From a virus: a stretch of DNA of 64,000 bases. The stretch is taken from positions 1-64,000 of IMG/VR virus record IMGVR_UViG_3300020438_000029. One strand, written 5' to 3'. Shown one piece after another: positions 14,328 through 45,876 of the stretch; within the stretch, counting starts at the first letter, position 1, and every line of letters starts with the position of its first letter. The position numbers were made by a program, and so were the translations under genes. The notes under the pieces were generated by a model that saw only the letters and a program-made list of their open reading frames with translations, did no database searches and was not told the DNA's origin.

Positions 14328-15745
14328 TGCTACATTTTTATGACGGACAAATAAGAAGATATACTACACAGATGATGCGCATACTTAGTAACTTTCCAGT
14401 GAAAGATGGTAAGGGTACAATTAAAGACGTACCGGTTACTTACGGAGACTTAACTAGGCAAGTAGCAAGTATTATTAGAGAAAATAGTGAAAACAAACTT
14501 CCAACTGTTCCTAGAATAGCTGTATACCTAACTGGATTAGAGCTTGATAAAGATCGTTTAGCTGATGCTACTTATACACGCAAAACAAATATAAGAGAAC
14601 GTGCATATGACGAAGAAAATAATGAATATTTAAACTATCAAGGCAAAAACTATACAGTTGAAAGATTAATTCCAACTCCTTATATGATGCGATTAAATGC
14701 AGACATTTGGGCAAGTAATACTGATCAAAAACTACAACTACTAGAGCAAATACTAGTATTATTTAATCCTAGTTTAGAAATGCAAACTACTGATAACTTT
14801 ATCGACTGGACTAGTATAACTGTTGTAAATTTAGAAAATGTAACATGGTCTAATCGAAGTATTCCTGTAGGTGTTGATAGTGAAATTGATATTGCAACTC
14901 TTACATTTAGCATTCCTATATATATTAGTCCTCCCACTAAAGTTAAAAAGATGGGTGTTATTACAAATATTATTACTTCAATGTTTGATGAGTCTAGAGG
15001 CGATATCGATTCTGGTATAAGTTCTCCGCAATTAAATCAATACGACGATTACGCCCAACCCGGTACTGTTGAAACTGGTGGCGGACGTAAAGCAAGTACA
15101 GACATTGCAGGCGAAACTGCCAATGTTAATTTTAATACATTCGGAGCATATGTAGACGGTGACACAGTAAGATTAATATCAAACGGTGCTGTTGGTATGA
15201 AAAATTGGAGAGAGATATTTATAGCACTTCCAGGAACATATGCTGCTGATGTAGCTAGAGTATTCTTTAGAAGCATTGATAATGATAGTACGGCAACTGG
15301 AACGTTTACCCTTAATCCGTTTGATGAAACTATAATTAATGTTAATTGGGATGCGGACAGTTTTCCAACTGACACTATCATAAGTGACAGAACTAGTATT
15401 GATTATATTATTAATCCTTTAAGTTTTAATCCAACAAGTATTAAGACTTCTGGATTACGCTTATTATTATTAGACGACATAGGTGATCCTAGTAGTACTG
15501 CTACAGAATTTCCAGTTGCTTGGCAAAACAACGACGGCAGTGGAATAGTAGCAAGTGCAAATGATATTGTTGAGTGGGACGGCACTAAATGGATAATTGT
15601 GTTTAATGCAAGTTCTGCTACAGACACAGTATATACCACTAACCTTAATACTAACACTCAATACAAATTTAAAGACGGTGAGTGGCTAAAATCTGTAGAC
15701 GGGGATTATCCAGTTGGGACATGGAGAATAGACTTGGCTGGCTAA
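14327..15745 (+). CDS. gp15: Tail terminator / sheath stabiliser (T4 gp15-like), C-terminally extended
   Basis: Gp15 caps the finished tail and joins it to the neck. The first 215 residues match T4 gp15 well: FYDGQIRRYTTQMMRILSNF, a DVPVTYGD strand, a YLIPTP-like IPTPYMMRLNADIWA segment, an EQILVLFNPSLEMQT helix and an IPVGVDSEIDIATLTF strand ending in PIYISPPT. Total length is 472 residues against 272 in T4. The extra C-terminal 250 residues contain DGDTVRL and KFKDGEWLKSVDGDY type segments that recur in phage virion proteins. The start codon overlaps the gp14 stop. Confidence 0.87.
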   Translation: MLHFYDGQIRRYTTQMMRILSNFPVKDGKGTIKDVPVTYGDLTRQVASIIRENSENKLPTVPRIAVYLTGLELDKDRLADATYTRKTNIRERAYDEENNEYLNYQGKNYTVERLIPTPYMMRLNADIWASNTDQKLQLLEQILVLFNPSLEMQTTDNFIDWTSITVVNLENVTWSNRSIPVGVDSEIDIATLTFSIPIYISPPTKVKKMGVITNIITSMFDESRGDIDSGISSPQLNQYDDYAQPGTVETGGGRKASTDIAGETANVNFNTFGAYVDGDTVRLISNGAVGMKNWREIFIALPGTYAADVARVFFRSIDNDSTATGTFTLNPFDETIINVNWDADSFPTDTIISDRTSIDYIINPLSFNPTSIKTSGLRLLLLDDIGDPSSTATEFPVAWQNNDGSGIVASANDIVEWDGTKWIIVFNASSATDTVYTTNLNTNTQYKFKDGEWLKSVDGDYPVGTWRIDLAG

Positions 15746-15753
15746 CTATATGT

Positions 15754-16194
15754 ATGACCGATATGATTACATGTAGTGGAGCACTATTCTACACACTAGA
15801 TACTAATAGATTTCTTTTTTTGCACAGAGCCAAAGGTAAACGCAATAATATGTGGGGATTAGTTGGCGGTACTAACGAAGGTTTAGAAACTCCTTGGGAA
15901 GGCCTTAAAAGAGAAATTTCCGAAGAAATAGGTAGTTTCCCAGACATTAAAAAAACTCTTCCTCTAGAAAGTTTCATTAGTGCAGATAGTAAGTTTCACT
16001 TTCACACATACCTGTGTGTAGTACAATCTGAATTTATTCCTATATTAAATGACGAGCATAACGGATATGCTTGGTGTAGTTTTACCAAATGGCCAAAACC
16101 GTTACATCACGGTTTGCGCAATACACTTCAAAGTAAAGTCAACTTATCTAAATTAGAAACTGTATTCCAAACTATAAATCTTCTTGACAAATAA
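15754..16194 (+). CDS. NUDIX hydrolase
   Basis: A 146-residue single-domain NUDIX protein. The NUDIX box is complete: G39-x5-E45-x7-R53-E54-I-x-E57-E58-x-G60, which binds the divalent metal and catalyses hydrolysis of a nucleoside diphosphate linked to another group. The upstream GLVGG strand fits the fold. The gene starts 9 bp after gp15; the ATG at 15754 was chosen because the open frame upstream lies inside gp15. The next gene's promoter lies in its last codons. It directly precedes a sugar-nucleotide cassette, and NUDIX enzymes often act on NDP-sugars (GDP-mannose hydrolases are one class), so the substrate may belong to the same pathway. T4 NudE acts on ADP-ribose and Ap3A. Confidence 0.88.
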   Translation: MTDMITCSGALFYTLDTNRFLFLHRAKGKRNNMWGLVGGTNEGLETPWEGLKREISEEIGSFPDIKKTLPLESFISADSKFHFHTYLCVVQSEFIPILNDEHNGYAWCSFTKWPKPLHHGLRNTLQSKVNLSKLETVFQTINLLDK

Positions 16195-16212
16195 TACAAA
16201 AGAAAGTATAAT
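16184..16212 (+). promoter_or_regulatory. Perfect consensus sigma70 promoter for the heptose cassette
   Basis: TTGACA at 16184-16189 and TATAAT at 16207-16212 are separated by 17 nt, a 12/12 match to the bacterial consensus. Six bases follow before the hldE ATG at 16219, so the first base of the ATG is the predicted +1. The -35 box lies in the last codons of the NUDIX gene. Confidence 0.9.
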
Positions 16213-16218
16213 AAGACT

Positions 16219-17358
16219 ATGAAAGTATTAGTTTTTGGTGATGTAATAATCGACAAATATATCTATGGTACTTCAGAACGCATAAGTCCTGAAGCACCTG
16301 TACCTGTGGTCAAATATCAGCGTGAAGTTGAAACACTAGGCGGAGCAGGACTAGTATACGAAAATCTTAAAAGTCTAGGTGTAGATGTTACACTATTACA
16401 AACTGAACAACCGCGTAGTATCAAGACGCGAGTTATTTGTGACGGGCATTACATTACACGAATAGACGATGACAAAGTGGCCGATAGTACTGCTGTACTA
16501 AGAAATGTATTGCGTAGTGATTTTTCTCAATGGGATTATGTAATACTAAGCGATTACAACAAAGGCGTACTTGACGAATCTCTAAGAATTATCGAACATC
16601 TAAACACATTTGGATGCAAAGTAATTGTAGATCCTAAAGAACATGCAACCCAATACAAAGGCGCATGGTTAGTAAAACCTAATAATGTTGAATTTACTAA
16701 GTTTGGATTTAACGAATGGCAAGGTAATATTATCACAACAAACGCAGGCGAAAACGTAGTTGCCAGCATAGACGGTGTTGATTATAACCTGCCTGTTGCA
16801 CAAGTAGAAGTATCAGATGTCACCGGTGCAGGTGATTGTTTCTTGGCTGCATTTGTATATGGATTAACTAAGAATTATGACTATACGCAATGTTTAGAAC
16901 TTGCTATAAAAGGATCTAAACGTGCAGTACAGCATGTAGGCACCCATATACTTACACATAATGATATTGAAGAACATGTAATCTTTACAAACGGTGTATT
17001 TGATATTATGCATACAGGACATTTTAATTTACTAAAAGAAGCACGTAGTTTAGGCGACAAACTTGTAGTTGGTATTAACTCAGATGCAAGTGTAAAACGT
17101 CTAAAAGGTAACGATCGTCCAGTAAACAATATAGAAAAACGTGTTGAACAAATATCTATACTACCATGGGTAGACGAAGTTCACGTTTTTGATCAAGATA
17201 CTCCTTATGAGTTAATTAAACATATACAGCCTAACTTAATTGTAAAAGGCGGAGATTATACTGTTGAAACTGTAGTAGGACATGATTTAACTGATGTGCA
17301 TATTATACCTACAGTAGACGGATACTCAACAACACAAATTATAGAGAATAGCAAATGA
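16219..17358 (+). CDS. hldE: HldE-like bifunctional heptose-7-phosphate kinase / heptose-1-phosphate adenylyltransferase
   Basis: HldE makes D-glycero-D-manno-heptose 1,7-bisphosphate and, after GmhB removes the 7-phosphate, couples the sugar to AMP. Residues 1-245 form a PfkB/ribokinase-type kinase: GDVIIDKYIYG at the start, GGAG at 41-44, and the anion hole and catalytic base DVTGAGD with D206. Residues 252-379 form a nucleotidyltransferase: FTNGVFDIMHTGH with HTGH at 265-268, GINSDASVKRLKG, and a late IVKGGDY strand. At 379 residues it is about 100 shorter than E. coli HldE (477), mostly in the kinase part, where the segment between residues 40 and 65 is compressed. Its ATG is at the predicted transcription start. 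Its stop overlaps the hldD start (ATGA). Confidence 0.9.
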   Translation: MKVLVFGDVIIDKYIYGTSERISPEAPVPVVKYQREVETLGGAGLVYENLKSLGVDVTLLQTEQPRSIKTRVICDGHYITRIDDDKVADSTAVLRNVLRSDFSQWDYVILSDYNKGVLDESLRIIEHLNTFGCKVIVDPKEHATQYKGAWLVKPNNVEFTKFGFNEWQGNIITTNAGENVVASIDGVDYNLPVAQVEVSDVTGAGDCFLAAFVYGLTKNYDYTQCLELAIKGSKRAVQHVGTHILTHNDIEEHVIFTNGVFDIMHTGHFNLLKEARSLGDKLVVGINSDASVKRLKGNDRPVNNIEKRVEQISILPWVDEVHVFDQDTPYELIKHIQPNLIVKGGDYTVETVVGHDLTDVHIIPTVDGYSTTQIIENSK

Positions 17359-18173
17359 GAATATTAATAACTGGATATAAAGGATTTATTGGAAGAAATC
17401 TAGCAATGTATTTGCAGCGTCAAGGACATGATGTAGAAGGATGGGAATGGCAACCTGGTATCATTCCTAGTACAGAAGACTACGATTGGTGTATACATTT
17501 AGGTGCAATTAGTTCAACTACTTTTACTGATGTAAATCAAATACTAGAACAAAATTTTGAATTTAGTATTAGGCTTGCACAAGTGTGTGAAAACTTTGGT
17601 ACTAATTTACAATATGCATCTAGTGCAAGTGTATACGGACCTACTACACATTTTACCGAAGATGGTCCTTTATTGCCGCAAAGCCCATATGCATGGTCAA
17701 AATATTTGTTTGATAGATATATTACACAATACAAGGACGAATTCGGTATCTTAGTGCAAGGCTTCCGTTACTTTAATGTGTATGGAGAAGGCGAAGAACA
17801 CAAAGGTGATCAAGCAAGTCCTTATACTAAATTTGCATATCAAGCTAAAGACAACGGTGTAATTAAATTATTTGAAGATAGTAATAACTATCTTAGAGAT
17901 TTTGTATGTGTAGAAGACATATGTAAAGTACACGAACTAATGTTAAATGTAGATGCTACAGACATTTACAATGTAGGCACAGGACGCCCTGTAAGTTTTG
18001 AAACAGTAGCACAATCTATTGTTAACAAACACGGCGGTGACATTGAATATATTCCAATGCCAGAAAATTTAAAGTCGCAATACCAAAGTTATACATGTGC
18101 TAATATAGATAAATTAAATTCTGTAATAGACATGAATTGGACAAATATAGAGGATTATATTAATGGAAAGTGA
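17355..18173 (+). CDS. hldD: HldD-like ADP-glycero-manno-heptose 6-epimerase
   Basis: A short-chain dehydrogenase/reductase that converts ADP-D-glycero- to ADP-L-glycero-beta-D-manno-heptose. The Rossmann motif TGYKGFIG gives G7, G10 and G13. The catalytic YxxxK is Y112 and K116. Several features are specific to HldD rather than to general sugar epimerases: AISSTT near residue 51, GFRYFNVYGEGEEHKG, KLFEDSNNYLRDFVCVEDI, NVGTGRPVSFETVA and IEYIPMPENLKSQYQ near the C-terminus. At 272 residues it is somewhat shorter than E. coli HldD (310). It overlaps hldE by 4 bp and the cupin gene by 11 bp, so the cassette is one translationally coupled unit. Confidence 0.9.
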   Translation: MRILITGYKGFIGRNLAMYLQRQGHDVEGWEWQPGIIPSTEDYDWCIHLGAISSTTFTDVNQILEQNFEFSIRLAQVCENFGTNLQYASSASVYGPTTHFTEDGPLLPQSPYAWSKYLFDRYITQYKDEFGILVQGFRYFNVYGEGEEHKGDQASPYTKFAYQAKDNGVIKLFEDSNNYLRDFVCVEDICKVHELMLNVDATDIYNVGTGRPVSFETVAQSIVNKHGGDIEYIPMPENLKSQYQSYTCANIDKLNSVIDMNWTNIEDYINGK

Positions 18174-18567
18174 AACTACTCGGTTAAACGGTGTTGTAGA
18201 AAAAGGTTGGGGCTACGAATTAATTTGGGCAACTAATGACAAGTATTGCGGAAAACTTATGGTGTTTCAAAAAGCAGGCGCTCAATTTAGTATGCATTTT
18301 CATCAAGAAAAAGACGAAACTTGGTTTGTAAATAACGGTAGATTTTTAGTAAAATGGATTGACACTAAAACTGCTAAATGGAACGAGCAAGAGCTTAAAG
18401 CAGGTGATACATGGCATAATCCTCCATTGCAGCCGCACCAACTAATTGCTATTACATCAGGAAGTAGTATTACAGAAGTAAGCACACCTGATAGTGTTGA
18501 AGATAATTACCGAGTTGCCCCAGGTGACAGTCAAAGAGAAAACAATGAGCCGGTTCCAAAAAGCTAG
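18163..18567 (+). CDS. Cupin-fold protein, possible sugar-phosphate isomerase/epimerase
   Basis: A 134-residue single cupin. The first cupin motif HFHQEKDETW supplies metal ligands H45, H47 and E52, and H92 in NPPLQPHQL supplies the fourth. The GWGYELIW start and HFHxxKxET pattern resemble type II mannose-6-phosphate isomerases and related sugar cupins. It lies between hldD and gmhB with overlaps on both sides. It could fill a missing isomerisation step or modify the heptose; GmhA, the usual sedoheptulose-7-phosphate isomerase, is absent from this window and has an unrelated (SIS) fold. The substrate is not known. Confidence 0.83.
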   Translation: MESETTRLNGVVEKGWGYELIWATNDKYCGKLMVFQKAGAQFSMHFHQEKDETWFVNNGRFLVKWIDTKTAKWNEQELKAGDTWHNPPLQPHQLIAITSGSSITEVSTPDSVEDNYRVAPGDSQRENNEPVPKS

Positions 18568-19144
18568 TACACAACAGTTAAATAGATATAACAAATATGT
18601 TGTTGGTCTTGATCGCGACGGCGTAATTAATAAAGATATTGGAACATATGTTACTAGTGTTAACGATTTTATTCCTATAGAAAAAAGTTTAGAAGCGGTA
18701 GCACTAATACGATCTAAGGGTCACCCAATTGTAATTATTACAAATCAAGGTGGTATACAAAAAGGCATTGTTACAGAAACACAGCTAAATGATATTCATA
18801 AACACATGTTTGATCTTTTAGGAAAAGCAGGATGCCCAAGTATTGACGGACTATATTATAGCTCTAGTAGTTTAAAACAAGATTTCTATGCTAAGCCAAA
18901 CATAGGAATGTTTGAACGTGCCCAAGATGAAATACCTAATATAAAATTTTCTAAAGGCATATATATTGGCGACAAACTTAGCGATCTAAAAGCAGCAGAT
19001 AAAATAGGCGCAAAGCCTATACTAGTGCGTACCGGACATGGATTAGAAACTGAAAAATTGCTTAATACTCGTTTTACTTATAACAAACTTAAAAAGAAAA
19101 CTCGAATATTTGATAGTCTTTGGGACGTTGCACAAGCCCTTTAG
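18545..19144 (+). CDS. gmhB: GmhB-like HAD phosphatase (heptose 1,7-bisphosphate 7-phosphatase)
   Basis: A 199-residue HAD-superfamily phosphatase of the histidinol-phosphatase/GmhB class. Motif I is DRDGVIN with nucleophile D23 and acid D25. Motif II is ITNQGGIQKG (residues 65-74), motif III is the K117-P118-N119 segment, and motif IV is GDKLSD with D143 and D147. The zinc-binding Cys/His loop found in E. coli GmhB is absent: residues 105-116 contain only Ser, Lys, Gln and Asp. Zinc-free GmhB relatives exist, so activity is still plausible. The start at 18545 is the last in-frame ATG before motif I and overlaps the cupin gene by 23 bp. The stop overlaps the stop of the giant minus-strand gene. 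Confidence 0.85.
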   Translation: MSRFQKASTQQLNRYNKYVVGLDRDGVINKDIGTYVTSVNDFIPIEKSLEAVALIRSKGHPIVIITNQGGIQKGIVTETQLNDIHKHMFDLLGKAGCPSIDGLYYSSSSLKQDFYAKPNIGMFERAQDEIPNIKFSKGIYIGDKLSDLKAADKIGAKPILVRTGHGLETEKLLNTRFTYNKLKKKTRIFDSLWDVAQAL

Positions 19145-22100
19145 GCTTGCGCTTCACCCCATTTAAGAATCAAGTTAGCTTCAACATTTGTACCGCCCAC
19201 TTTATACACATTAATAGCAAGTACGTCTGGACCATTTGGGAATGTTCCTCGTCCACCTAGCGTAGTATTTGTAAGCTCTTTCAATTCACTAAAGTCAACA
19301 GTTGCACGTTCTCCTGGTGTTGCAATAAAGGAGAACACAGTTTCACCTGGTTGTGCATAGGGTGGTTGAACGAATGTAAATTCTACTGTACCACTACCTG
19401 CTGTTAGTGTTCCACTAAACGAATTGTTAAACTGTACTTCATAAAATTGAGTAGATCCGTGTTGTTTAGCAGTTACACTGTTAACCTGTGTGTTAGCAGG
19501 GAAAGTTACTGAGCCGCCGTTACTTAGATTTGTACCTTGCTTAACTCCTGCAGTATCAATTTCTGATTTACTAAGATATGCATAGTTTCTGCCTACAAGT
19601 GATTCATTAAACGTAAATGTCTGCTGTTGATTATCAATGGTGTTGCTCACGCCTCGGCTTATTCTTATTGCAACATAGCTAGTGTACACGTTAACACTAG
19701 TAACAGTAGTATCAGATCTAATATTAGTGCCTGTTACTGTTGATCCAACAACAATTGGTCCGTTAGCTTCATACATGCTTGTAGAGTAATATAGTGTAGT
19801 ATTCCTCCTCCAAGTTGGATAATCATCATTATTCATAGTAGCCACTACACTACCAAGTGCTGTAGCTGTTGCTGTAGTAGCAGCCTCGCCTGTTGACCAT
19901 ACAACAGAACCACCAGCAGCAACTTGTGCAAAGCTAGGCTGACCACCTTGCGCAACACCGCTCAATGTTGTCCAACCAACATCGTTTGGATTGATTGGAT
20001 AGTTTTGTGGGTTAAGTACACCTTCAACAACAATACCGCCAGTTATTGGTGCATTACTATTTCCAGTATCAACACCGTCTGATGTAACTTCAAGACCTTG
20101 TAGCAACAATTGTGCTCTGTTTAGTAGTTCTCTTTCACCTAAGTCTCCAATAATTGCGTTTGAAACACTGGGTGCTAGTCTAATCATAAACGCTGTTTGT
20201 TTAGTTGTACTAACATCAATTCCTGGTTCTGCATATGAGAAGATATATCCTCTATCTTCATCAAATCCGCCGTCTGTTAAGAACGCCGAACCCCAGTGAC
20301 TAATTAAAGGAGTAATTGTATTACTAATTAATATTACGCCAGTTCTTGCATCATGTGGGACAGCTCCGCCTGCGCTATAAGTACGTTCGGCGCCTGCTTG
20401 GAAGTTAGTTAATGTTGTTCCTCTTGTTAAACCAGTTAGATGATTTGAAGAACGTCCACTAAACGTAATAATTTCATTATCAATATAAACAGTGCCGTAT
20501 TCTGGGAAGAAACTTCCGTCCACTAGTTCTAAAGTAGTTGCACTTGCATCCAAATCTGCTGCTAGTTTACCCGGAGGTCCTTCGTTAGTAACTTCATAAC
20601 GCACAGGCAAGTTACCTGAACGCATAAATGCTTCTGTGTTTACGTTTGAGTTACGCATTCTGTGACAGAATATAAAGTTACCATCTTGTCCGCGAAGCAT
20701 AAAGTCAATAAATCCAGCACCATACCAACTGTATTGAATACCAATCATTTGCATTTTAGCAATATCAATGTCGTATCCACTAGGACCATTGCCATCCAAT
20801 GTGTCTAGATTAAAGTCAGCTGACTTAACTTTCTTATCAATAACTAGATTCATTTTTGCACCAGTAGCAGGAGTTACACCTCTAAAGTCAGGCGTAACAG
20901 TACAAGATGTTTGGCTAGTAACATTTGTTACCACGTGTGTCATACCTTTGATAATAACTCTATCACCTGCTGTTAACTGATCGCGGAATCTTGTGTTTGT
21001 TCCTGTTACTAGATTCCCGTCAACTTCAATTGCAATAGTTCCAGCTACCTGCTGAGTACCAGTACGTTGATTAACACTAACGTTAGTACCGTCGAATTCC
21101 CAAAAAATGCCGTTTTGATCATCAAAGATGCCTGAACGTACAGTTGCGCCGTGCCATGCAACAACACTCATTTGTGCGCCAAAACCAATGTTGGCTTCTT
21201 GTTTAAATGCTCCAATAGTATCTTCAACTACGGCTGTATTTCTTCTTTTCTTAAGTTCTGCAAGAGTATCTGCAATTCTTGTAGATAACGATTCAGCTTG
21301 TGAAACACCGTCTAAATAATTTATAAGATCAGTAGTATCATCTACAGTGAAGCTTCCTGAGTTGTTAATATCGCCCCACGCATATCCATCTGGTGCAGTC
21401 TCGTTGATAAAGAAGTTGTGTATGTCATGAGTGTTAGTTCCACTTGCTGCTTCATCAAATGCAACAACTAGTGGTGACGTATTAGTCGGCGAGTTTAAAA
21501 CAATTTCTGTAGTGTCGCCTAATCTGCGTTTTGATCTAACTGTAAATGAACGTTCACTTAATACTTCTTCAACTGTGTAATCAAATCCTGGAGGTACTTC
21601 CGGATTAACTCCTGAATTATATCCCGGTGTTTCTACACCTAACAATCTAATTATGCCGCCTGCTTGTACGCCGTGATCGTTATCATCTGTTGTAATAGTA
21701 ATTAACGAATTAAGTTCTGTTCCAGCTGCTGATATAGTTGAAAGATCGTAACTTGGAGCAAATAGCGCACCAGTTGTATACATAATACCCTTACCTGATT
21801 GGTAACGAATATATTTTTTACTTTGACGTATTGCTTGTGCGCCATGCTGTGGACCGCCTGTTCCTAACTGCACACCGCCATCAAATGGTCTATGAACAAA
21901 GAAGCTGTCTGGCCTTGCATATAGTACGCCATTGATCGGATCAGTAGCAGCATCTGTTGTAATTGTTCCTGCTGCTCTAGCAGTATATCTTAGTTTATCT
22001 ATTGCCGGAATATTAGTAACAAGGAATGCTCCGTCTGCAAGATCATGATTGTTTGTTCCGTCATCTGTCGATGTTGCTGTAATAAACGTATCACCTGGCA

Positions 22101-25100
22101 CAAGTCCGTGTGCAGCAGGGAATGTAACTTCTAATGTTGCAATAGCACTAAACGTAATTGCTGTATTTGCAGCCATCTGTCCTGTTGTTGCTTCTGTCAT
22201 TGTAAATGTTGATATTAACGGAACTTGTGTGCCTGGATTTGCCGGCTGTTGTGTTGTTGTAAATGTTGTTAATGCATTATTGTTAAGTGTATCGACACCT
22301 GTAACTGTGATAGTAATATCATTGTCGCCATTTACACCGTCCATATCACTACCATTAAGTGTTAATACATCACCTATTTCATATTGTGTTCCGCCGTCGC
22401 CGTCTATTTCTTGGTAGCCACCGTTTATTCGCTGAACACTAAATTCTGCACCAGAACCCGGTCTATTAACATTTGTTAGTAATAAACCTAAATAAGTTTC
22501 TGTTCCACTTGTTGCTGTACCTGCACTACTAAATCCTGTGATTGCGCCAGTACCACTTACACTTGTTATTGTAATAGTAATGTCATTTGCTGGTGTTTGA
22601 CCTTGTAGTTCTGTACCTAATATTTTAAGTTCTTGATCTACAAAGAAGTTTAATCCGCCAACGTTAAGTGTAACTGCATAGTTATTAGGAGTAAGAGCAA
22701 TGTCAAACAATGCTCCAGTACCTGCAAGGATTGTTCCTGTTAGTGGTGTAACAATCTGTTGGTTAGTTGCGGTACCTGATATGCTTGCAGCTGTAATATC
22801 TCCACTGCCACCAACGTTATCAATTGTAATTGTTGCATCGTTTGTAGGAGATGCGCCGTTTAAATTTGTACCTGATACTAGCAGTGTATCACCGATACTA
22901 TATCCAGTGCCCGGTACTGTAACAATCACAGCATAAGACGTGCCTTGCATTCTAACATCTACTTCAGCAGTGGTTCCAGCACTAGACGTTGTAAAACTTA
23001 CATTAGGAAATAACACATCTGCGTTTGGAGCAGTGCCGCTCTCAATTACTACAGTATTAATATTTCCGGTTTCGCCAGAGACAGCAGTTTGGATTCCTGT
23101 AACTTTTATAATTAAATCGTTAGCAGGACTTGTGCCTCCTGGAAACTGATCACCTGATATTAATAATCTATCGTTAACTACGAAGTCTTCTGAAACATTT
23201 GGCGGTGATCCTTCAACACCAACGCTTGTAAATGCGTTATTAGCCATAGTTACATTAAACTGGGGCGGATTAATACCAATGCCTCCAGCTAATGGTGCCG
23301 CAATACCAGTATAATTTTCTGTACCTGCAACTGCCGTACCTGTAAGTGTTACTGTTGCAATGCCGCCAGTCGCTGTAATACTAGCAACTGTACCAAACAT
23401 ATCATTAGTGGCAGTTACGCCGCCAAGTTGAGTACCGTCTATTAGAAATTTATCACCTACTTCATAATTAAGACCTGCTAGGTCAATTGCTGATAGAGAA
23501 TAGGATCCGCCGGATCTTTGTATATTAAGCAGTGCGCCGGAACCAGCAGGCTGAACTGTTGTTGGAGTTAATATTGGATATGTTTTTGTATTTGATACAA
23601 GTGATGAAGTTAATCCACTGCTTAATGAAACTGTACTTCCTACAACATTGTTAATAAATGTTGCTACACCGTCGCCTCTATCTAATGCTAGGTTTGGAAC
23701 AACACCGGTTGCATCAAATAATTGTATATCTGTATCTCCAATATTAGCATTGGATCCAATATTTAATGTTAAGTACTCGCCGCCGCCTGCACTGTTATCA
23801 ATAATATTAGTAACCTGTGAACCTACTGGAATAAGAGGACTTATTAAAGGTGAGCCAACTTCAGGTGAATTACCGTCAAACGGAATAGTATTTGCTCCGG
23901 TTTGGACTATTAGCTCAGACACCATTGCACCCGAAGAACCGTTACTTAATACATCAAATTCTGCGCCGTCAATTCCTGCTCCGGTATAAAAACCACCTTT
24001 TCTTAGTTGAGTATAACCGGCTGCTAATTGCTCACCATCTGCTGTTCCTACTTTTGATTTAGCATAGTACTGGAAACTTAAATTAGTTGGTACACTAATA
24101 ATAACAAACGAACCTTCAGCTCGTGCTGCGCCTGCAATAGATGTTTCAAGAGCTTTAATTGTAATAGGTGTACCTACTTCAAATCCGTGTGCTGATACTG
24201 TTGTAACTGTAATTAATGAAGCACCAATACCATCTGTTCCGTCACTTGCATCAGTTTCAACACTTAATACCTGTGTATCTGTTCCTGGAATTTCGTATAC
24301 ACTTGGATATCCACGCATCATAGAAATTGCAGACCATTTAGTAGGCTGTAAACCGTACTCAAAGTCAGCATCAAGCATACTTAATGGAGGAGCAATACGC
24401 ATACGTTCAATTGCGTCTGTTCCAAAATCATATGGTCGTTGCGTTACTACACTTTTTCCATTTTCCATTTTTTCTACAAAAATTTGTAGATCGTCAGTTG
24501 ATGAATGTGTAGTTGTGTTGTATGTTAAATTAATAGTAGTTACAGCATCAGTTGTCTGTAGATACTTTGGAAAATCTTCGTCTGCGCCGTGATCTTTAAT
24601 AACACATTCTGCACCGGCTTCGGGGTCACTAAAATTATAAATTATTTCATTTTTGGATGTGTTAGTGACAAGCAGTAATTCGTCTGAAGTATATCTTCCT
24701 TGGATTTTGATATTGCCTAAACCTGTTGTTTCTGCTGTAGGAAGGCTAGTAATTCCGTTAGTAAGAACATCAACAGTGTTTTGTGAAAGCGTTACAGCTC
24801 GCATACTTGCGCCAGCAATCACTGCTCCTGTTATAGCACTTGAAAATGTATGTAATGAAGTATCAGAACTTATACCTACATTCATTGTAATAGATGTTGC
24901 AGTGACACCAGTAATAGTAATTGGTTTATTAAAATATGGATCGCGCTGTAATGCATTAGGAACGCCTGCTCTGCGTGGATAAGGATGTAATGTAGCATTA
25001 CTGTCTAATGCACAAGTAAACGTTATTCCATCCGGTCTAATAATAATTTTATCATCAGCTTGAAGCGTGTGCGTACCAATCTCTAAAGTCATAATGCCTG

Positions 25101-26451: not shown

Positions 26452-26454
26452 GTT

Positions 26455-27375
26455 TTATAATCCAAATGCTACTGAAAATGCTACTGCTGTTTTATCAACA
26501 TATCCTTTATTTGCTACACTTTTCTTTGTTGTTAAAACATTATTAACATCAGCTGATGTAAATGTAGCAGTCGAAGGTGTTGTTGCACCAATTGTCGTAT
26601 TGTTAATAGTACTTTCTGTTATGTTACTAGTATTTATAGGAATCGACAACCCTGTACTATTAATTTCTCCTACAAAAGAACTGTTGTTTTTAATAACAAT
26701 TTTATTTGCAGCGTCTAATTCTAAGTTTGTGTTTGACGTAATATTACTAATTCCAACACCATTATAAGCAACACCATTAGTTGTTATTTTACCGTCAACA
26801 AATATATCGCCGCCAATCCCGGCGCCTCCCTTAACAACTAATGCGCCAGTATCACCACTTGTGGCGGCGGTTGTAGATGTAAGTACTAAATCACCAAACT
26901 GTCCTGCAGCATCAGTAATTGTAATTATATTGTAAAGGCCTGTAGCTACATCACCGTAATATAATGTGTCTGGAGCATCTGCAGGTACTGTAAACTGTAG
27001 TACACCATCAGTATTACCCTGTGCCGCTGCTCCTGTAGTTATTACACCGTCGTCATGCGTATGTTGTAATCCCGTATTATATAGTGTGCCCAGGTCGTCA
27101 CTAAAAATACTAAATGTATTTTCAGTTAATTCTAAATTAAATGTAAATCGTGTAACTCTAGTAAGTGCTAAGGAAGGGTTTTGTGCAGCTTCTCCGTTAA
27201 GTTGGTAGTAGCCTATTTCGTCAGTGAATGAATAATCAGTTACCTGTGTACCGCCGCTGCCGCCTGCGCCGGCAGCTTGTATGCTAGTAGCAATTATATT
27301 ACCTTGCTCGTCGACAGTAAAGTTTGGACTTGTAAATCCAAACTGGGAACTAAAAGGTTTATTTACTACAGGCAT
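26455..27375 (-). CDS. Virion protein with degenerate cupredoxin-like domain
   Basis: A 306-residue protein, probably part of the tail or a fibre. Residues about 70-150 resemble the cupredoxin domain of the 1493-residue protein: NTFSIFSDDLGTLYNTG corresponds to the histidine loop and APDTLYYGDVATGLYN to the Cys-His-Met loop. The four copper-ligand positions are F88, G141, A144 and L147, so copper binding is lost. Later come an ALVVKGGAGIGGDIFVDGKI beta-helix type segment and a trimerisation-like C-terminus ending KGYVDKTAVAFSVAFGL. It has a late promoter CATAAATA and a Shine-Dalgarno CGGAGA. The giant gene follows 3 bp after its stop. Confidence 0.8.
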   Translation of the reverse strand: MPVVNKPFSSQFGFTSPNFTVDEQGNIIATSIQAAGAGGSGGTQVTDYSFTDEIGYYQLNGEAAQNPSLALTRVTRFTFNLELTENTFSIFSDDLGTLYNTGLQHTHDDGVITTGAAAQGNTDGVLQFTVPADAPDTLYYGDVATGLYNIITITDAAGQFGDLVLTSTTAATSGDTGALVVKGGAGIGGDIFVDGKITTNGVAYNGVGISNITSNTNLELDAANKIVIKNNSSFVGEINSTGLSIPINTSNITESTINNTTIGATTPSTATFTSADVNNVLTTKKSVANKGYVDKTAVAFSVAFGL

Positions 27376-27393
27376 CGATATCTCCGTTTAATA

Positions 27394-27401
27394 TATTTAT
27401 G
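27394..27401 (-). promoter_or_regulatory. Late promoter motif CATAAATA
   Basis: The minus strand reads CATAAATA 18 nt upstream of the ATG at 27375. It would drive the 306- and 2436-residue genes. Confidence 0.6.
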
Positions 27402-27407
27402 CAAATA

Positions 27408-27800
27408 TTAATCTGCAAGGGTCTGGAAGTACGTTGCTGTGTACATTACCCTAGCTCCTTCTTTGCCTACAGCAGCCGGGCTTACAATTAACTGAAATGA
27501 TGATTTATCAACAGATGCACTAACAGATAAGATGTCAGTACTTAACCCTGCTCTTCCAGTAATTGTAATAGCTGCGTTATCAGGACCTGCAACTGCTAGT
27601 ACTTGTATAGTTTCTTTATCATCGCGTCCGTTATCAGCAATGATAGTATAATTAGCACTCATAATTTCACCAATGTGCCATTTATCTAATACAATATTTG
27701 AATGGAGGGATTTCCAATGATTCTTGTACGAGAATTGCGTATTGTTTTTTAGCCTTAGTGTGTTGTGGGCACCTTTAATAAAAAAATCTTTGAAGTCCAT
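27408..27800 (-). CDS. Small virion protein, unknown function
   Basis: A 130-residue protein starting MDFKDFFIKGAHN. The N-terminal third is basic and helical; the remainder is beta-rich with VGKEGARVMYTATYFQTLAD at the end. No family is recognised. It is the first gene behind a late promoter (GATAAATA, 27830-27837) and is followed by the 306- and 2436-residue virion genes, so a tail or fibre-attachment role is likely by position. Confidence 0.72.
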   Translation of the reverse strand: MDFKDFFIKGAHNTLRLKNNTQFSYKNHWKSLHSNIVLDKWHIGEIMSANYTIIADNGRDDKETIQVLAVAGPDNAAITITGRAGLSTDILSVSASVDKSSFQLIVSPAAVGKEGARVMYTATYFQTLAD

Positions 27801-27829
27801 GCTGTATCCTAAAGTTCAGTTTCTAGTAT

Positions 27830-27837
27830 TATTTATC
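27830..27837 (-). promoter_or_regulatory. Late promoter motif GATAAATA
   Basis: The minus strand reads GATAAATA 29 nt upstream of the ATG at 27800. It lies in the short divergent region shared with the plus-strand unit starting at 27873. Confidence 0.6.
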
Positions 27838-27845
27838 AATATATC

Positions 27846-27853
27846 TATAAGTA
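27846..27853 (+). promoter_or_regulatory. Candidate late promoter TATAAGTA
   Basis: The plus strand reads TATAAGTA, one mismatch from TATAAATA, 19 nt before the ATG at 27873 with AGGAG between. A TATAAT at 27857-27862 lies too close to the Shine-Dalgarno to be a useful -10. This is the best candidate for the plus-strand unit. Confidence 0.35.
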
Positions 27854-27872
27854 AAATATAATAGGAGACTAC

Positions 27873-28598
27873 ATGTTTAATAAGAAGATTGTACTCAAGG
27901 CGCTAACTCCTGATATTAGTGTATTACAGACTGTTCCTGTAGCATTCGGTGAAAAGAAAGAAAAACCCAGTTGGCTTAAGACTATAAAAAGTACTGTGTC
28001 CCACTGGAATGAACGAATTGGACTACATGAAAAATCTGGAACTGTTGCAGTATGTCCTGGTATTAGAGAATATTTATCAAATCCGATACACATTAACATG
28101 TGGGAAGATGTTGATATAAGAATTAACCCTGACGGAAGTTGGTCGAATACTCCGTCTGTATCTGGAGGCGCTATTCCAATAGATATTTCAGAACATCCTG
28201 AAGATCAATGGAGAGGTCTGTATCCTGGAAAACGGATCGCCCTTAAATTGTCTAGCCCGTGGAAATTTACATGTAACCAAGACGTTGGGTTTTTGTTTAC
28301 AGAATCGCACTATAGTACATCATATTTTAGAGAAAAAGGCATATGGTTATCTCCAGGATATACTAATTTTAAATGGCAATATGCTACTAATATTCATTTA
28401 AATTGTCCAGTAAAGGATCAACCTTATGTTATTACACTAAAACACGGAATGCCATTAATATCACTATTTCCATTAACAGAAAGAGAAATTGATTTACAAG
28501 TTGAAAAAATGGATTTTAATCCATGGGCAGAACTTGGTGAACATTTTCCTAAAGTTAGATTTGGAAAATATTATAAACAGCCTGGATTTAAAAAATGA
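27873..28598 (+). CDS. Beta-rich protein of unknown function, paralogue of the next gene
   Basis: A 241-residue soluble protein with many Trp, Pro and aromatic residues. Its C-terminal half (WKFTCNQ, FREKGIWLSPGYTNFKW, HGMPLISLFPLTEREIDLQ) aligns in order with the same region of the next gene, so the two are tandem paralogues. The pattern is like the jelly-roll-type proteins of unknown function (possibly the DUF6065 group) that marine phages carry beside 2OG oxygenases; I hold that assignment weakly. The Shine-Dalgarno is AGGAG. It overlaps the next gene by 4 bp, first of a four-gene plus-strand operon. Confidence 0.72.
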   Translation: MFNKKIVLKALTPDISVLQTVPVAFGEKKEKPSWLKTIKSTVSHWNERIGLHEKSGTVAVCPGIREYLSNPIHINMWEDVDIRINPDGSWSNTPSVSGGAIPIDISEHPEDQWRGLYPGKRIALKLSSPWKFTCNQDVGFLFTESHYSTSYFREKGIWLSPGYTNFKWQYATNIHLNCPVKDQPYVITLKHGMPLISLFPLTEREIDLQVEKMDFNPWAELGEHFPKVRFGKYYKQPGFKK

Positions 28599-29314
28599 AA
28601 ACAGTGTATTGGGCGCCGTGGGATAGAATAGATTTATTAGAACCTATGTATTTAGGATTTACTGAACCAGTAAATGTACTTGAAGATTTACAAAAAAGAC
28701 AAAATAAAGAAAATAATCAAGATAACTTTTTAAATTGTCCAGCTTTTGTAAACAGTAGTAAAAATCTTTTTATGCTAAACAGTCCTGTTAATATAGATGT
28801 TGATATTTTTCCTGACCATCTAAGAAATAATCTTAGCGATAATATACCATTTAATGAAAGAAATTTTATTTTAAAACAGCCGTCTTTATTAAATGCTTAT
28901 ACTGTAAGATCTGCAGGCTCATGGATATTTTTTTGTGAGGAAGAATTAGAAATAGAATCCATGCATCCGTATATGCACAAAACACCAGTTTCTGATGCAG
29001 GATTTTATGTTCCCGGAAGATTTGATATCTCACAGTGGTTTAGGCCATTAGAATATGCATTTCAAATGCACGAAGGTAACACAAATTTTAAAGTGGGTCA
29101 AGGTGATCCTTTAATGTATGTTAATTTTAAAACTAATGAAAAAGTAAAATTACAAAAGTTTTTTCTAACCGAAGAATTATTATCGTTGTCAATGAGTTGC
29201 GTAAGATTAAAAAATACTTGGAAGCAGAGAAATTTAAATAAATTATACGATATTTTTAAAGGTTCAAAAATAAAAAATCAATTAATAAAAAAAATCAAAG
29301 AAAATTTAATATAA
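28595..29314 (+). CDS. Beta-rich protein of unknown function, paralogue of the preceding gene
   Basis: A 239-residue protein. WIFFCEEE, GFYVPGRFDISQWFRP and GQGDPLMYVNFKTNEKVKLQ match in order the corresponding segments of the upstream paralogue. The N-terminus MKTVYWAPWDRIDLLEP is distinct, and the C-terminal 25 residues are strongly basic (many Lys, Asn, Ile). It overlaps the upstream gene by 4 bp and abuts the first oxygenase gene (TAA then ATG). A function linked to the neighbouring oxygenases, such as substrate or partner binding, is possible but unproven. Confidence 0.72.
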   Translation: MKTVYWAPWDRIDLLEPMYLGFTEPVNVLEDLQKRQNKENNQDNFLNCPAFVNSSKNLFMLNSPVNIDVDIFPDHLRNNLSDNIPFNERNFILKQPSLLNAYTVRSAGSWIFFCEEELEIESMHPYMHKTPVSDAGFYVPGRFDISQWFRPLEYAFQMHEGNTNFKVGQGDPLMYVNFKTNEKVKLQKFFLTEELLSLSMSCVRLKNTWKQRNLNKLYDIFKGSKIKNQLIKKIKENLI

Positions 29315-29890
29315 ATGATACACAGTTTATTTCCAACTACCGTATACAATATACAGATTGCTGATACAATGCGACTCGAGTTGTTAGACGCATGTAATAG
29401 CGTGTTGACAGATGTAGGTGAAGATCATTTACTGAATATAGAAGGTTGGAATAGTACATTACACTCGGCACCTGATGAGTCAAATGTTATTAATAATATT
29501 CCTATAGTTATTGAAACATTTAAACTTATTAAAGAATCTATACAAGATTTTTTAAATCAAAGAAACCAACCATATTTTGAAGAAGATATGCAACACCCGT
29601 TTGGGTTTTTTAGTGATATGAAAAACAATGGACATTTACGTAGACATGCACATTTGGATTGTAAATTTAGTGGAATTATATATTTAGAAGTAGGCGATAA
29701 TGTTCCTCCTTTAGTATTTCATGATCCTAGACCGTATACTAAATTTGAATCTAGTAAATACTGTACTAATCCTGTTGTTACTATTCCGCCGCGACAAGGA
29801 ATGATGTTGATATGGGATCACTGGTTAGAACATGAGGTGTATACAAAAACAAACGATAATCCTCGTAAAAGTTTTACGTTTAATATTTAG
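29315..29890 (+). CDS. 2-oxoglutarate/Fe(II)-dependent oxygenase
   Basis: A 191-residue double-stranded beta-helix oxygenase of the small phage type (2OG-FeII_Oxy_5-like). The iron-binding facial triad is H113-x-D115 in HAHLDCKFSGIIYL and H173 in DHWLEHEVY. R184 in NPRKSFTFNI is placed to bind the 2-oxoglutarate carboxylate. The HPFGFFSDMKNNG region and the terminal strand fit the family. Such enzymes hydroxylate proteins, nucleic acids or small molecules, and the substrate cannot be told here. It directly follows the paralogous pair with no spacer and is 8 bp upstream of a second oxygenase. Confidence 0.85.
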   Translation: MIHSLFPTTVYNIQIADTMRLELLDACNSVLTDVGEDHLLNIEGWNSTLHSAPDESNVINNIPIVIETFKLIKESIQDFLNQRNQPYFEEDMQHPFGFFSDMKNNGHLRRHAHLDCKFSGIIYLEVGDNVPPLVFHDPRPYTKFESSKYCTNPVVTIPPRQGMMLIWDHWLEHEVYTKTNDNPRKSFTFNI

Positions 29891-29898
29891 GAAACATA

Positions 29899-30498
29899 AT
29901 GGATAAAAATTTTAGAGAATCTATCCAATGGCTTAGCGTTCCAATACATTTTTGGGAGTTTAGTTTTGAGGATACCGACGAGTACTCTGTAGAAGAATTA
30001 CACAATGATGTAGAGCGTGTTATTAAAGAAGTAGGCGATGCTAGAAATAAAGAAACAAATGTAAAGGCTACTATAATGACCGATTGGCTTATGACCGATC
30101 ACAAGCCATTTAAATATATTTGCGATCATGTCGAATCTTTAATACAGCAATGGCACAAAGAAAAAAGTGACCTAGATTTAAAAACATTTATGACAACATG
30201 TTGGGGATCAATATATAATCGAGGAGACTACAGTGAACTACATGCGCATGTGCCTGCTTTGTATAGTTGGGTGTATTATGTAAAAGTAGACGACGATGCT
30301 GCTCCGCTTCATTTCCCACACGAACCCGGAATGTATTATAAGCCTAAATCTGGGGATGGGATAATTTTTCCCGGTTGGTTATCACACCAAGTACAACAAC
30401 ATCAAAGCGATAATGAAAGAATTATTGTTGTAGGAAACGTTGAAGGAACTGGTGCAATTAGTTACCCTCAACGTTCATTTACAGATGTTAATTTGTAA
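29899..30498 (+). CDS. Second 2-oxoglutarate/Fe(II)-dependent oxygenase
   Basis: A 199-residue protein of the same broad fold. The metal site is probably H115/H117 in YNRGDYSELHAHVPALYSWVYYV and H163 in IIFPGWLSHQV, with R174 in DNERIIVVGNV for 2-oxoglutarate. The W-G-S-x-Y-N-R-G-D approach is typical of 2OG-FeII_Oxy_5. It differs enough from the first oxygenase to have another substrate. The Shine-Dalgarno AGGAAAC lies just upstream. Its last 11 bp overlap the 3' end of the opposing carbamoyltransferase gene. Confidence 0.83.
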   Translation: MDKNFRESIQWLSVPIHFWEFSFEDTDEYSVEELHNDVERVIKEVGDARNKETNVKATIMTDWLMTDHKPFKYICDHVESLIQQWHKEKSDLDLKTFMTTCWGSIYNRGDYSELHAHVPALYSWVYYVKVDDDAAPLHFPHEPGMYYKPKSGDGIIFPGWLSHQVQQHQSDNERIIVVGNVEGTGAISYPQRSFTDVNL

Positions 30499-32323
30499 CT
30501 GTAATTAGTTTTCCGTATTCAGGAAGATACAAATATTCAATATCACAACTTGCTAGTGTACGTATTGCATCATCAAGTGTTTCTACAAGAGGTTCACCAC
30601 CTAAGTTAAAACTTGTATTAAAGATAATTGGACAACCTGTTGCATCCTTAAATGCTTTAATAATATCATAGTAATGTTGATTCTGTTCTCTAGTAACAGT
30701 TTGAATACGACACGTTCCGTCGACATGAATAATCGCTGGAATCTTTTCTTCAATGCCTGGCTGGCAATTTACAGCATACATCATACTAGGGCTATCTTCC
30801 ATGCCACGAAGATCAAACCATTCGTGTACATCATCTTGTAAAATACTGCCTGCAAATGGACGGAAGTATTCCCTATGTTTTACACTATTAACAAAGTCTT
30901 TGCCGTTAGGGTCTGTTGGATCATACAAAATACTTCTATTACCTAAAGCACGTGGTCCTGCTTCAGAACGTCCTTGAAATAAGCTAACAATGTTTTTTGA
31001 TGTAATTAGTTTTATAACATCTTCATTTGTTGCATCACTAACTGTTGCATTATATTTTTGTGCTGTTTCTTCTATTTCATCATCAGTATAATTGTATTCA
31101 AATCCAAGATATAATCCGTCAGTTGAATTATCGACTTTATCAAATTCTCCTTCAAGATCTTTGTATACTAACATTGCTGCCCCTATAGAAGTTCCAGCAT
31201 CATTTGACACTGGCTCAACATAGATGTTGATACCTTCATCTTTAAGTGCTTCTAAGTAGTGATAGTTTGCAACACAATTTAATCCATAACCTCCACTTAT
31301 AACCACATTTTTATTACCAGATAGATCAACAGCTTTTCTAATTAGTCTTACGATTTCGTCTTGCGATTGTGTTTGTACAGCATATGCAAGATCTCTTCTA
31401 TTTTCTAAAAATGTTAAATTTTCTACAGTTGGCATTTCTTCTTCATTCTGTGTAAATTCATATGCATCAGCATTTATATATGCACCGTTTGGATATGACG
31501 GAACGACAAAGTTTCTATTAGTTAGATTAAATGAAGTATGGCCAAACAGTTTAGGAATATTAGGATTTTCCTTGCCATAAGGAAATAATCCCATTGTTTT
31601 GCCTGCTTCAATAAAGTGCCAGCCACAAAAGTATGTTACTGCTTCATATGTTTTTACAATTCCTGCCGTATCTGAAATTACACACTCAAAAGTATGTCCT
31701 TCTGGGTCCATAAATGCCTCACCCGAAGATTCTTCAACTGTTGACAATGCTGAAGAAGCAGTAGCAACATGCTTATATAATGTACGAATATCATTTGGGT
31801 AGTTACAAGAAAAAATTGATTCAGTTTCCCAACCTGGTACTGATGGCATTCCAGTGCCATTGTGATCTTGTTTAGCAACCGCCATTACAGATCCTGCACC
31901 ATCTACAATTACTGCAACAGCAGATTCAAATCCACTTCTATAAAACGCACATGCAGCATGTAGTTTATGATGTATTTTACCTAAGTTAATTACCTGAGGA
32001 TGGCTTCCGTCAAAATTATTTTGACTATCATCCCTAGAAATTAGTCCTGTCTTCCTAGCAAAAGCAGTATATATATCCTCCCCTGAAAAATCGGCTTGTA
32101 TTGTTTTTAAGTCTTCTGTTGTATGACAAATAACAAGATATTCTAATGTATCAGTATATTCTAATATTTTCATCATAGCTGTTGTTGGAGTGCCGTCGTA
32201 CTTACGTCTTGATAAGCGTTCTTCTTCTATGGCAAAAACTACTTCACCGTTTTTTAAAAGACATACACTTGCATTATGTCCACGTGTTATGCCTGCAATC
32301 CAAATATCTCTTTTGTTCGTCAT
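30488..32323 (-). CDS. NodU/CmcH-family O-carbamoyltransferase
   Basis: These enzymes transfer a carbamoyl group from carbamoyl phosphate, through carbamoyl-adenylate, to a hydroxyl, usually of a sugar. The 611 residues show both domains. The N-terminal Kae1/ASKHA-like domain has GITRGHNASVCLLKNG and EEERLSRRKYDG at the start, the metal-binding HHKLHAACAFYRSGF segment near residue 115 and GGYGLNCVANY near 345. The C-terminal domain has QGRSEAGPRALGNRSIL, HREYFRPFAGSIL and FNTSFNLGGEP. Length is normal for the family. The start overlaps the GT9 stop (TAATG), so it is coupled to a glycosyltransferase, which suggests carbamoylation of a glycan. Confidence 0.93.
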   Translation of the reverse strand: MTNKRDIWIAGITRGHNASVCLLKNGEVVFAIEEERLSRRKYDGTPTTAMMKILEYTDTLEYLVICHTTEDLKTIQADFSGEDIYTAFARKTGLISRDDSQNNFDGSHPQVINLGKIHHKLHAACAFYRSGFESAVAVIVDGAGSVMAVAKQDHNGTGMPSVPGWETESIFSCNYPNDIRTLYKHVATASSALSTVEESSGEAFMDPEGHTFECVISDTAGIVKTYEAVTYFCGWHFIEAGKTMGLFPYGKENPNIPKLFGHTSFNLTNRNFVVPSYPNGAYINADAYEFTQNEEEMPTVENLTFLENRRDLAYAVQTQSQDEIVRLIRKAVDLSGNKNVVISGGYGLNCVANYHYLEALKDEGINIYVEPVSNDAGTSIGAAMLVYKDLEGEFDKVDNSTDGLYLGFEYNYTDDEIEETAQKYNATVSDATNEDVIKLITSKNIVSLFQGRSEAGPRALGNRSILYDPTDPNGKDFVNSVKHREYFRPFAGSILQDDVHEWFDLRGMEDSPSMMYAVNCQPGIEEKIPAIIHVDGTCRIQTVTREQNQHYYDIIKAFKDATGCPIIFNTSFNLGGEPLVETLDDAIRTLASCDIEYLYLPEYGKLITVTN

Positions 32324-33249
32324 TAAGTTTTGTCCTCAATATCTTTAATTATTTTTTTAATAATATCAGCAAGTTCTTTGTCATTAAAGTCCATTGTGCT
32401 ATCATTTTTTCTATTTGCTATATCTGCATCAACGCCTTGTTCACACAACCTAATTGGAAAATATTCAATTTTCGTATTTGGTTTTTGAAGTATCTGAAAA
32501 TGATCTTTATATGTAACATTTTCTGCAAATGTACTTCCTAATATTACTGTACCAGGTTTATTAAATGCTTTTGCCATATGTTGACCAACACTGTCACATC
32601 CAATAAAATAATCACATCCTTCAATAATGCCTGCCCATTGCCGCAGTCCTGTTTGTATTTTAAAGGTCGTATCATCTACTTCGTTGTTCTCTCCCATGTA
32701 GATTACATTATATTTCTTATGTAGTTCTTTTATAATTGTGTTATAATCTTTTACACTTAATGATCTGCTCATTGGATCAATCATTTCATTTGCAATAGGA
32801 GCTGGTGTGGCAGATCTGCCAAATGGTTGTATTACTATTGTCTTTAATTTATTTTGTTGTTTAGAAGCATTCTCTAATGCATCTAATGCATTTAATTCTT
32901 CTTGTTTATTTAAACAAATTTTAATATTTGGTAAATCGCTATGATCGTCAGTTTCGTTAATAATATGATCAAATGCTTCAGTTAGGTGTCTTGTTTGATT
33001 ATAGTAACCGTGATCTTGATAAGGTTCAGGCTGTATTAAAATATTAGGCTGAATAATATCTTTAAATACGCCTTTATGTTCAGGGGTAAAAGTTAAATCT
33101 ACAAGCTCAGGAATACCTACAAAAAAATCTAAACCGCTTCCGGATAGTATATAAAAGTTAGGGCCGTGTTTTTTGTGATACTTTAATAATGCTGGGATGG
33201 AGCATAGTACTCGACCTGCTCCTCCATTGATACTAAATACTTTTTTCAT
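32323..33249 (-). CDS. Glycosyltransferase family 9-like (heptosyltransferase-type)
   Basis: A 308-residue protein with a GT-B type layout. The N-terminal strand SINGGAGRVLCSIPALLKYHKKHG resembles the GxGDxLxxxPxxxxLK opening of heptosyltransferases. The C-terminal domain has a TIVIQPFGR nucleotide-side strand and CDYFIGCDSVGQHMAKAFNKPGTVILG, the D-S-x-x-x-H-x-A-x-A pattern of GT9. It ends with a KDxELADIIKKII helix. GT9 enzymes use ADP-heptose in LPS core synthesis, which fits the hldE-hldD-gmhB cassette elsewhere in this window. Its Shine-Dalgarno AGGAAG lies inside a 16-bp inverted repeat. Confidence 0.8.
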   Translation of the reverse strand: MKKVFSINGGAGRVLCSIPALLKYHKKHGPNFYILSGSGLDFFVGIPELVDLTFTPEHKGVFKDIIQPNILIQPEPYQDHGYYNQTRHLTEAFDHIINETDDHSDLPNIKICLNKQEELNALDALENASKQQNKLKTIVIQPFGRSATPAPIANEMIDPMSRSLSVKDYNTIIKELHKKYNVIYMGENNEVDDTTFKIQTGLRQWAGIIEGCDYFIGCDSVGQHMAKAFNKPGTVILGSTFAENVTYKDHFQILQKPNTKIEYFPIRLCEQGVDADIANRKNDSTMDFNDKELADIIKKIIKDIEDKT

Positions 33250-33255: not shown

Positions 33256-33314
33256 GCTTCCTAGCTAACAGTTAGTTATATAATTAATTATATGTTGTCT
33301 GTTAGCTAGGAAGC
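33256..33314 (-). promoter_or_regulatory. 16-bp perfect inverted repeat enclosing the GT9 Shine-Dalgarno
   Basis: Arms at 33256-33271 and 33299-33314 are perfectly complementary over 16 bp. The 27-nt loop contains a second palindrome, ATATAATTAATTATAT. On the minus-strand RNA the 3' arm carries AGGAAG, the only Shine-Dalgarno for the GT9 ATG at 33249. Only about four U residues follow, so it is a poor terminator and a good candidate translational switch. Confidence 0.85.
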
Positions 33315-33325: not shown

Positions 33326-33333
33326 AATTTATA
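33326..33333 (-). promoter_or_regulatory. Candidate late promoter TATAAATT
   Basis: The minus strand reads TATAAATT, 7 of 8 to the T4 consensus, overlapping the stop of the 233-residue gene. Transcription from it would include the whole inverted repeat upstream of GT9. Confidence 0.35.
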
Positions 33334-41345: not shown

Positions 41346-41378
41346 TGCTTACTCCAAAATTTTGTGTCTTCTTATACA

Positions 41379-41386
41379 TATTTAGC
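41379..41386 (-). promoter_or_regulatory. Late promoter motif GCTAAATA
   Basis: The minus strand reads GCTAAATA 33 nt upstream of the ATG at 41345. It is the same octamer as at 11461 and 13142 on the plus strand. Confidence 0.6.
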
Positions 41387-45863: not shown

Positions 45864-45876
45864 TTTTTTATCCTAA

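Follow-up and report, generated by a model that had tools for sequence, protein, structure and literature searches.

Cyanophages of the P-SSM2 type carry a group of genes that the literature calls lipopolysaccharide (LPS) genes (PMC3037559, PMC7029224), although their function has never been established (PMC3037559). In P-SSM2 they are T4-GC 302-308, and the set, which is located in the tail-fibre region, also occurs in S-CAM1, S-CAM3, S-SSM7, P-TIM68 and Sf-FS3; Sullivan et al. (2010), who described co-occurring cyanophage genes including T4-GC 304, 305, 307 and 308, left their functioning undecided (PMC3037559). The products are a GT9-family glycosyltransferase, a carbamoyltransferase (CTase), an adenylyltransferase, a kinase, a small HAD protein, a cupin and an epimerase. 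The same enzymes are encoded in the marine viral DNA considered here, a window of 64 kb from the 67,461-base IMG/VR record IMGVR_UViG_3300020438_000029. The cyanophage set differs in having separate kinase and adenylyltransferase genes, a HAD protein of 114 aa and another gene order.

A precedent for the transfer of ADP-heptose onto an adhesin protein is provided by TibC (PMC4358343). The GT9-like and CTase genes of the window belong to a pair whose genetic linkage to a glycine- and cysteine-rich tail-fibre adhesin is near-obligate, and we give an even chance to the reading that the phage makes ADP-heptose to glycosylate its own adhesin, with carbamoylation as the following step, rather than to remodel host LPS. 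The gene set was already known; the adhesin coupling, the replacement of a catalytic aspartate by arginine in the GT9-like enzyme and the promoter at the start codon of the heptose genes are undescribed in the literature searched.

Linkage to a cysteine-rich adhesin

The genes concerned, all on the minus strand, are arranged as follows.

34043-35554 (-): Gly/Cys-rich tail-fibre adhesin with 26 Cys in 503 aa, identified by composition and linkage; the proposed acceptor
33329-34030 (-): protein between adhesin and GT9, by position a possible (weakly assigned) tail-fibre assembly protein
33256-33314 (-): hairpin before the GT9 start codon, from single-sequence folding
32323-33249 (-): GT9-like glycosyltransferase (phrog_8954), by predicted fold, with Arg in place of Asp13
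30488-32323 (-): NodU/TobZ-type CTase (Carbam_trans_C, E 5e-59), overlapping GT9

In 55 of 60 related loci, a Cys-rich, Gly-rich open reading frame (ORF) precedes GT9 on the same strand at a distance of at most 8 kb, compared with 2/79 for the downstream side and 0 of 840 ORFs in control loci centred on hldE. The reverse scans, started from two adhesin alignments, yielded 74 loci, and wherever there was enough flank (at least 6 kb downstream) GT9 was found within about 7 kb, in 62 of 62 loci (22/22 and 40/40). An independent scan used WTVPAGV, a motif characteristic of the Gly-rich domain of fibre tips: GT9 accompanies none of the 93 Cys-poor proteins carrying it (0/43 of those with at least 3 kb downstream) but five of the six Cys-rich ones with enough flank (Fisher p 3e-6), the sole exception, L327, being barely over the Cys threshold. 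A further scan seeded with one Cys-poor Gly-rich protein returned itself only. Among annotated phages, homologues of the Cys-rich, Gly-rich proteins occur only in P-SSM2/P-SSM5, S-SSM7/S-SSM6a, Sf-FS3 and the single-cell viruses AG-345-E02/F15, all of which have GT9.

The window adhesin is comparable to the Gly-rich fibre tips Pam3 gp24 and S16 gp38, which come with a tail fibre assembly (TFA) chaperone (PMC9608196), and may share their tip class; a possible assembly gene comes after it as well. It differs from them in being loaded with cysteine and tied to GT9-CTase. The protein preceding GT9 in a related locus (L189) matches phrog_4912, tail fiber assembly, at E 7.5e-4. Short Cys-rich adhesins, as in L125, match the Pfam family PF21722 (Gly_rich_2), the tip-domain class of Pam3 gp24 and S16 gp38, above its cut-off, and the window adhesin has no Pfam match. 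The preliminary description had mentioned decoration of the virion in passing, and this option emerges as the better supported one, given that GT9-CTase tracks the Cys-loaded adhesin. Further upstream, the minus strand encodes tail fibres (35901-49926), among which two proteins have CBM_5_12 modules and a Laminin_G_3 domain also occurs.

The GT9-like enzyme and its carbamoyltransferase

The GT9 assignment rests on the predicted fold because the Pfam score of 15.9 is below the gathering score of 22. An AlphaFold2 model built from 52 phage sequences (pLDDT 93.6) has the GT-B fold, and its nearest matches are the GT9 protein 3tov (Z 22.5), WaaF (20.0), TibC (19.9) and WaaC (18.6), followed by three plant NDH-complex chains (18.2-18.5), with the remainder from 12.2 down. 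The predicted fold is like that of heptosyltransferases. Sequence similarity to WaaC and WaaF is weak: a profile search against the PDB gave no match, and by sequence the alignment covers the C-terminal half only. The enzyme nevertheless shares an Asp261-type motif (GxDSxGQHxA) with them, and its residues 1-22 align without gaps to E. coli WaaC, the N-terminal motif agreeing save for residue 13. All 52 family members have Arg at this position, which is Asp in WaaC, while Asp13 is the catalytic base of all heptosyltransferases studied, where the D13A substitution loses about 4,700-fold activity (PMC5713226). Compared with TibC and BAHT, the equivalent of the base Asp110 likewise appears changed to Arg, and there is no Cys4 iron finger, no Cys being invariant in the family alignment. 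On the evidence of the model this is a GT9-fold enzyme, but it falls short of a canonical heptosyltransferase, as it lacks the catalytic Asp of the LPS heptosyltransferases. Its use of ADP-heptose is suggested by gene linkage.

The CTase contains Carbam_trans_N and Carbam_trans_C, both above gathering score, and so has the same two Pfam domains as the NodU/TobZ/GdmN O-carbamoyltransferases, from which it differs by its coupling to GT9; it lies directly after GT9 in 73 of 82 loci. A phage carbamoyltransferase has been shown to act on 5-hydroxymethylcytosine (PMC8670742), and P-SSM2 has a thymidylate synthase gene, which raises the alternative of DNA hypermodification, with modified cytosine as the target of the CTase and of the sugar. 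We regard this as very improbable, as the CTase adjoins GT9, sugar genes and the adhesin rather than base-modification genes. In one phage without hldE a sulfotransferase directly follows the CTase (L141:12625-13440). Two 2-oxoglutarate (2OG)-Fe(II) oxygenases (29315-30498) are convergent to the CTase and kept in close relatives; oxygenases of this type are often inserted in the heptose cassette and were considered as part of the system, hydroxylating before glycosylation, yet they are scattered throughout long relatives and were set aside as unspecific.

Upstream of GT9, sigma70-like sites with 11-12 of 12 matches occur in 10 of 73 sequences, with none in shuffles and none upstream of the CTase. 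The hairpin of the window has perfect 16-bp arms and a T-run and abuts the GT9 start codon, with TATAAT at 33287-33292 in its loop and a likely ribosome site in its 3' arm; it folds at -29.5 kcal/mol against -7.7 +/- 2.8 for shuffles. Close relatives have a different sequence before GT9 that also folds strongly, again in single-sequence folds. The hairpin is possibly a terminator or a translation switch like that of gene e.

The heptose cassette and its promoter

The second group of genes is a plus-strand run at 15.7-19.1 kb with overlapping ends.

15721-16194 (+): Nudix hydrolase (PF00293, E 3e-13), opening the conserved run, with an uncertain start
16184-16212 (+): sigma70 promoter TTGACA-17-TATAAT, exact consensus
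16219-17358 (+): HldE-like kinase/adenylyltransferase (heptose-7-P kinase and heptose-1-P adenylyltransferase), by domain and profile matches
17355-18173 (+): HldD-like ADP-heptose 6-epimerase, by TIGR02197 (227 bits) and alignment to E. coli HldD 1eq2
18163-18567 (+): metal-type cupin (PF07883)
~18548-19144 (+): GmhB-like HAD phosphatase lacking the Zn-Cys loop (PRK08942, 132 bits; 4pnh, 2gmw)

An HldE with both domains, an HldD, a GmhB-like HAD and a cupin, as first described, are all present. The HldE-like protein joins PfkB (E 4e-15) and cytidylyltransferase (E 2e-19) domains in one chain and holds the GAGD and NGxFDxxHxGH motifs; its whole-length NCBIfam HldE score of 277 bits is below the equivalog cut-off of 521, and its kinase domain is short, at ~245 aa for ~315 model positions (about 70 residues fewer). 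The HldD-like protein is a short-chain dehydrogenase/reductase whose best solved relative is E. coli HldD; alignment to 1eq2 indicates that the catalytic Tyr and Lys and K178 (the HKG Lys) are retained, and its TIGR02197 score compares with a cut-off of 274.6. Since all the heptose enzymes score under the NCBIfam equivalog cut-offs, the suffix "-like" is kept throughout. In the HAD protein the motifs DRDG, TNQ and KP are present, while the Zn-binding Cys loop of GmhB and its CRKP motif are absent; YYSSSSLKQDFYAKP stands there instead and is kept in relatives, where the loop is conserved as S.SS.K.D.YAKPN. The claim that the cassette covers the steps to ADP-heptose after GmhA holds as a near-complete route, tempered by the sub-cut-off scores, the short kinase and the altered HAD loop.

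The search for gmhA recommended at the outset found no acceptable SIS or SIS_2 match in this record or 14 relatives and nothing above cut-off in 18 further records; these 33 records are possibly fragments, and absence cannot be claimed from fragments. The "phosphoheptose isomerase" of P-SSM2 (L001:24312-24656), a label that recurs in other cyanophages, was considered as a GmhA and rejected, being the 114-aa HAD-type protein and not an SIS protein. The cupin, the only other invariant enzyme of the cassette, has a profile that matches D-lyxose ketol-isomerase (2y0o, E 1.4e-6) among other, unrelated cupins, and from its sequence is a candidate aldose-ketose isomerase that may stand in for GmhA.

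The hldE promoter ends six bases ahead of the ATG, and among 38 distinct upstream sequences from relatives 34 have TTGACA-17-TATAAT-6-ATG without a mismatch, which argues for a real sigma70-type element and not a chance match; the consensus host promoter of the preliminary description is thus confirmed and conserved. Transcription is predicted to start on the A of the ATG, so that the mRNA is likely leaderless. The T4 late promoter TATAAATA was also considered: its four sites are below chance expectation and none is at the cassette.

Relatives of hldE were found in 231 viral loci, and in the best 80, kept for comparison, the cassette genes keep almost the same order, apart from occasional inserts, the Nudix gene being kept beside hldE in nearly all. 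Retention of the genes as filler without a working pathway has been proposed as an option for cyanophages (PMC3037559), but intact frames and a nearly invariant order and promoter across many divergent loci leave such passenger DNA a very slim chance. Three phage contigs have further genes at the cassette: a pyridoxal phosphate (PLP) enzyme resembling 5-aminolevulinate synthase beside it (L085:3241-4425, minus strand), a gene like class I fructose-bisphosphate aldolase between hldE and hldD, which could make a seven-carbon precursor (L086:11682-12473), and a PurN-like formyltransferase between hldD and the cupin (L073:11945-12466).

GT9-CTase lies 12-14 kb from the cassette here, as originally noted, but adjoins it in many phages, and for this reason the two are taken to belong together; the functional tie is backed by the presence of GT9 in 17 of 19 hldE records. 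A different arrangement would have GT9-CTase modify the adhesin with another nucleotide sugar while the heptose cassette feeds something else. Long GT9-CTase records without hldE speak for this, as does the loose sharing of donors within GT families, but besides the 17/19 count, hldE is the immediate neighbour of GT9-CTase in many unrelated arrangements and the nearest folds are ADP-heptose enzymes, and we think it rather improbable.

The major capsid protein is 67-71% identical to those of jumbo phages (PA5oct, Vibrio 2.275.O, Sinorhizobium Phosso), and since its closest relatives are jumbo phages the record is taken to be part of a far larger genome. The earlier label "T4-like" is right in a broad sense, the capsid being nearest to PA5oct-type jumbo phages. 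A DNA megablast of the window against phages gave no match.

Occurrence, proposed function and significance

Only eight matches to the GT9 family were found among about 85,000 cellular species, most of them on phage contigs: L187-L190 carry phage tail-fibre genes, L185 resembles phages in its Gly-rich and Cys-rich ORFs, and the matches in L191-L192 are short and partial. The eighth is a Woesearchaeota contig (L186), in which a Gly/Cys-rich protein with a Tat-like signal is directly followed by GT9, CTase and HAD (L186:6040-11317). This group is flanked at either end by archaeal genes (enolase, Cbf5/TruB-like, endonuclease III and ribosomal protein-like). Among 279 genomes of its phylum this genome alone gives a full-length GT9 match, and the case is an apparent phage-to-archaeon transfer. 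To our knowledge, archaea have no LPS. Among cultured phages, P-SSM2, S-CAM3 and Sf-FS3 hold the module within the tail-fibre region, and in Sf-FS3, whose host is Synechococcus WH8102, the full module lies between tail-fibre and neck genes. The LPS of this host is reported to be without heptose (PMC4515613).

These occurrences bear on the explanation favoured by the preliminary description, in which the phage adds heptose, perhaps carbamoylated, to the host LPS core and thereby blocks superinfection or alters receptors. HldE, HldD and GT9 are LPS-core heptose families, and the literature names the genes accordingly (PMC3037559, PMC7029224); host-type sigma70 promoters stand on hldE and, in many phages, on GT9, so that expression need not be late; and an adhesin could co-evolve with a receptor that the phage modifies. 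However, the module tracks the Cys-loaded adhesin (62/62 against 0/93) and not any LPS gene, and LPS remodelling does not account for the finding that Cys content by itself tells Gly-rich tips with GT9 linkage from those without it. The archaeal trio, the full-module phage on WH8102, the loss of Asp13 and the near restriction of the GT9 family to phages also count against it, and LPS-core remodelling now appears an unlikely purpose.

We prefer to think of the module as a means of decorating the adhesin. The HldE-, HAD- and HldD-like enzymes would make ADP-heptose from host heptose phosphate, and the cupin may catalyse the isomerisation of sedoheptulose-7-phosphate, for which an enzyme is otherwise missing. 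The GT9-like enzyme would use ADP-heptose as donor to glycosylate the Gly/Cys-rich adhesin of the neighbouring operon, and the CTase would then cap the transferred sugar, giving a decorated receptor-binding tip that may benefit the phage through stability, host range or protection. Several observations weigh against this reading. Linkage is no proof of substrate, as an LPS-modifying enzyme could co-evolve with an adhesin that reads the modified LPS, and an invariant Arg stands in the place of the catalytic base Asp13. The structure model of the window adhesin is poor (pLDDT 36.8), the archaeal case is one contig of a metagenome-assembled genome, and the record is a genome fragment. Several long records (372, 223, 194, 181 and 108 kb) also have GT9-CTase but no homologue of hldE, and the sugar may for that reason not always be heptose, or may be host-derived.

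A more specific version is suggested by two of these features together: only the Cys-loaded form of the Gly-rich protein travels with GT9-CTase, and Arg replaces the general-base Asp. Cysteine thiolates need no general base, and HypF, a distant CTase relative, carbamoylates thiols. The GT9-like enzyme might then S-glycosylate adhesin cysteine thiolates, and the CTase might carbamoylate either the sugar or the thiols themselves, as a dedicated cysteine modification system for phage adhesins that was once captured by an archaeon. This is speculative, and we hold it to be improbable on present evidence.

For some twenty years the "LPS genes" of marine phages have been of unexplained use, and they now have a concrete substrate candidate. 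If decoration of the adhesin is correct, the receptor-binding tip of a lytic phage is glycosylated by means of a nucleotide-sugar pathway that the phage itself supplies. This would have consequences for host range, for adsorption and for how stable virions are in the sea, and might reveal a new type of cysteine modification.

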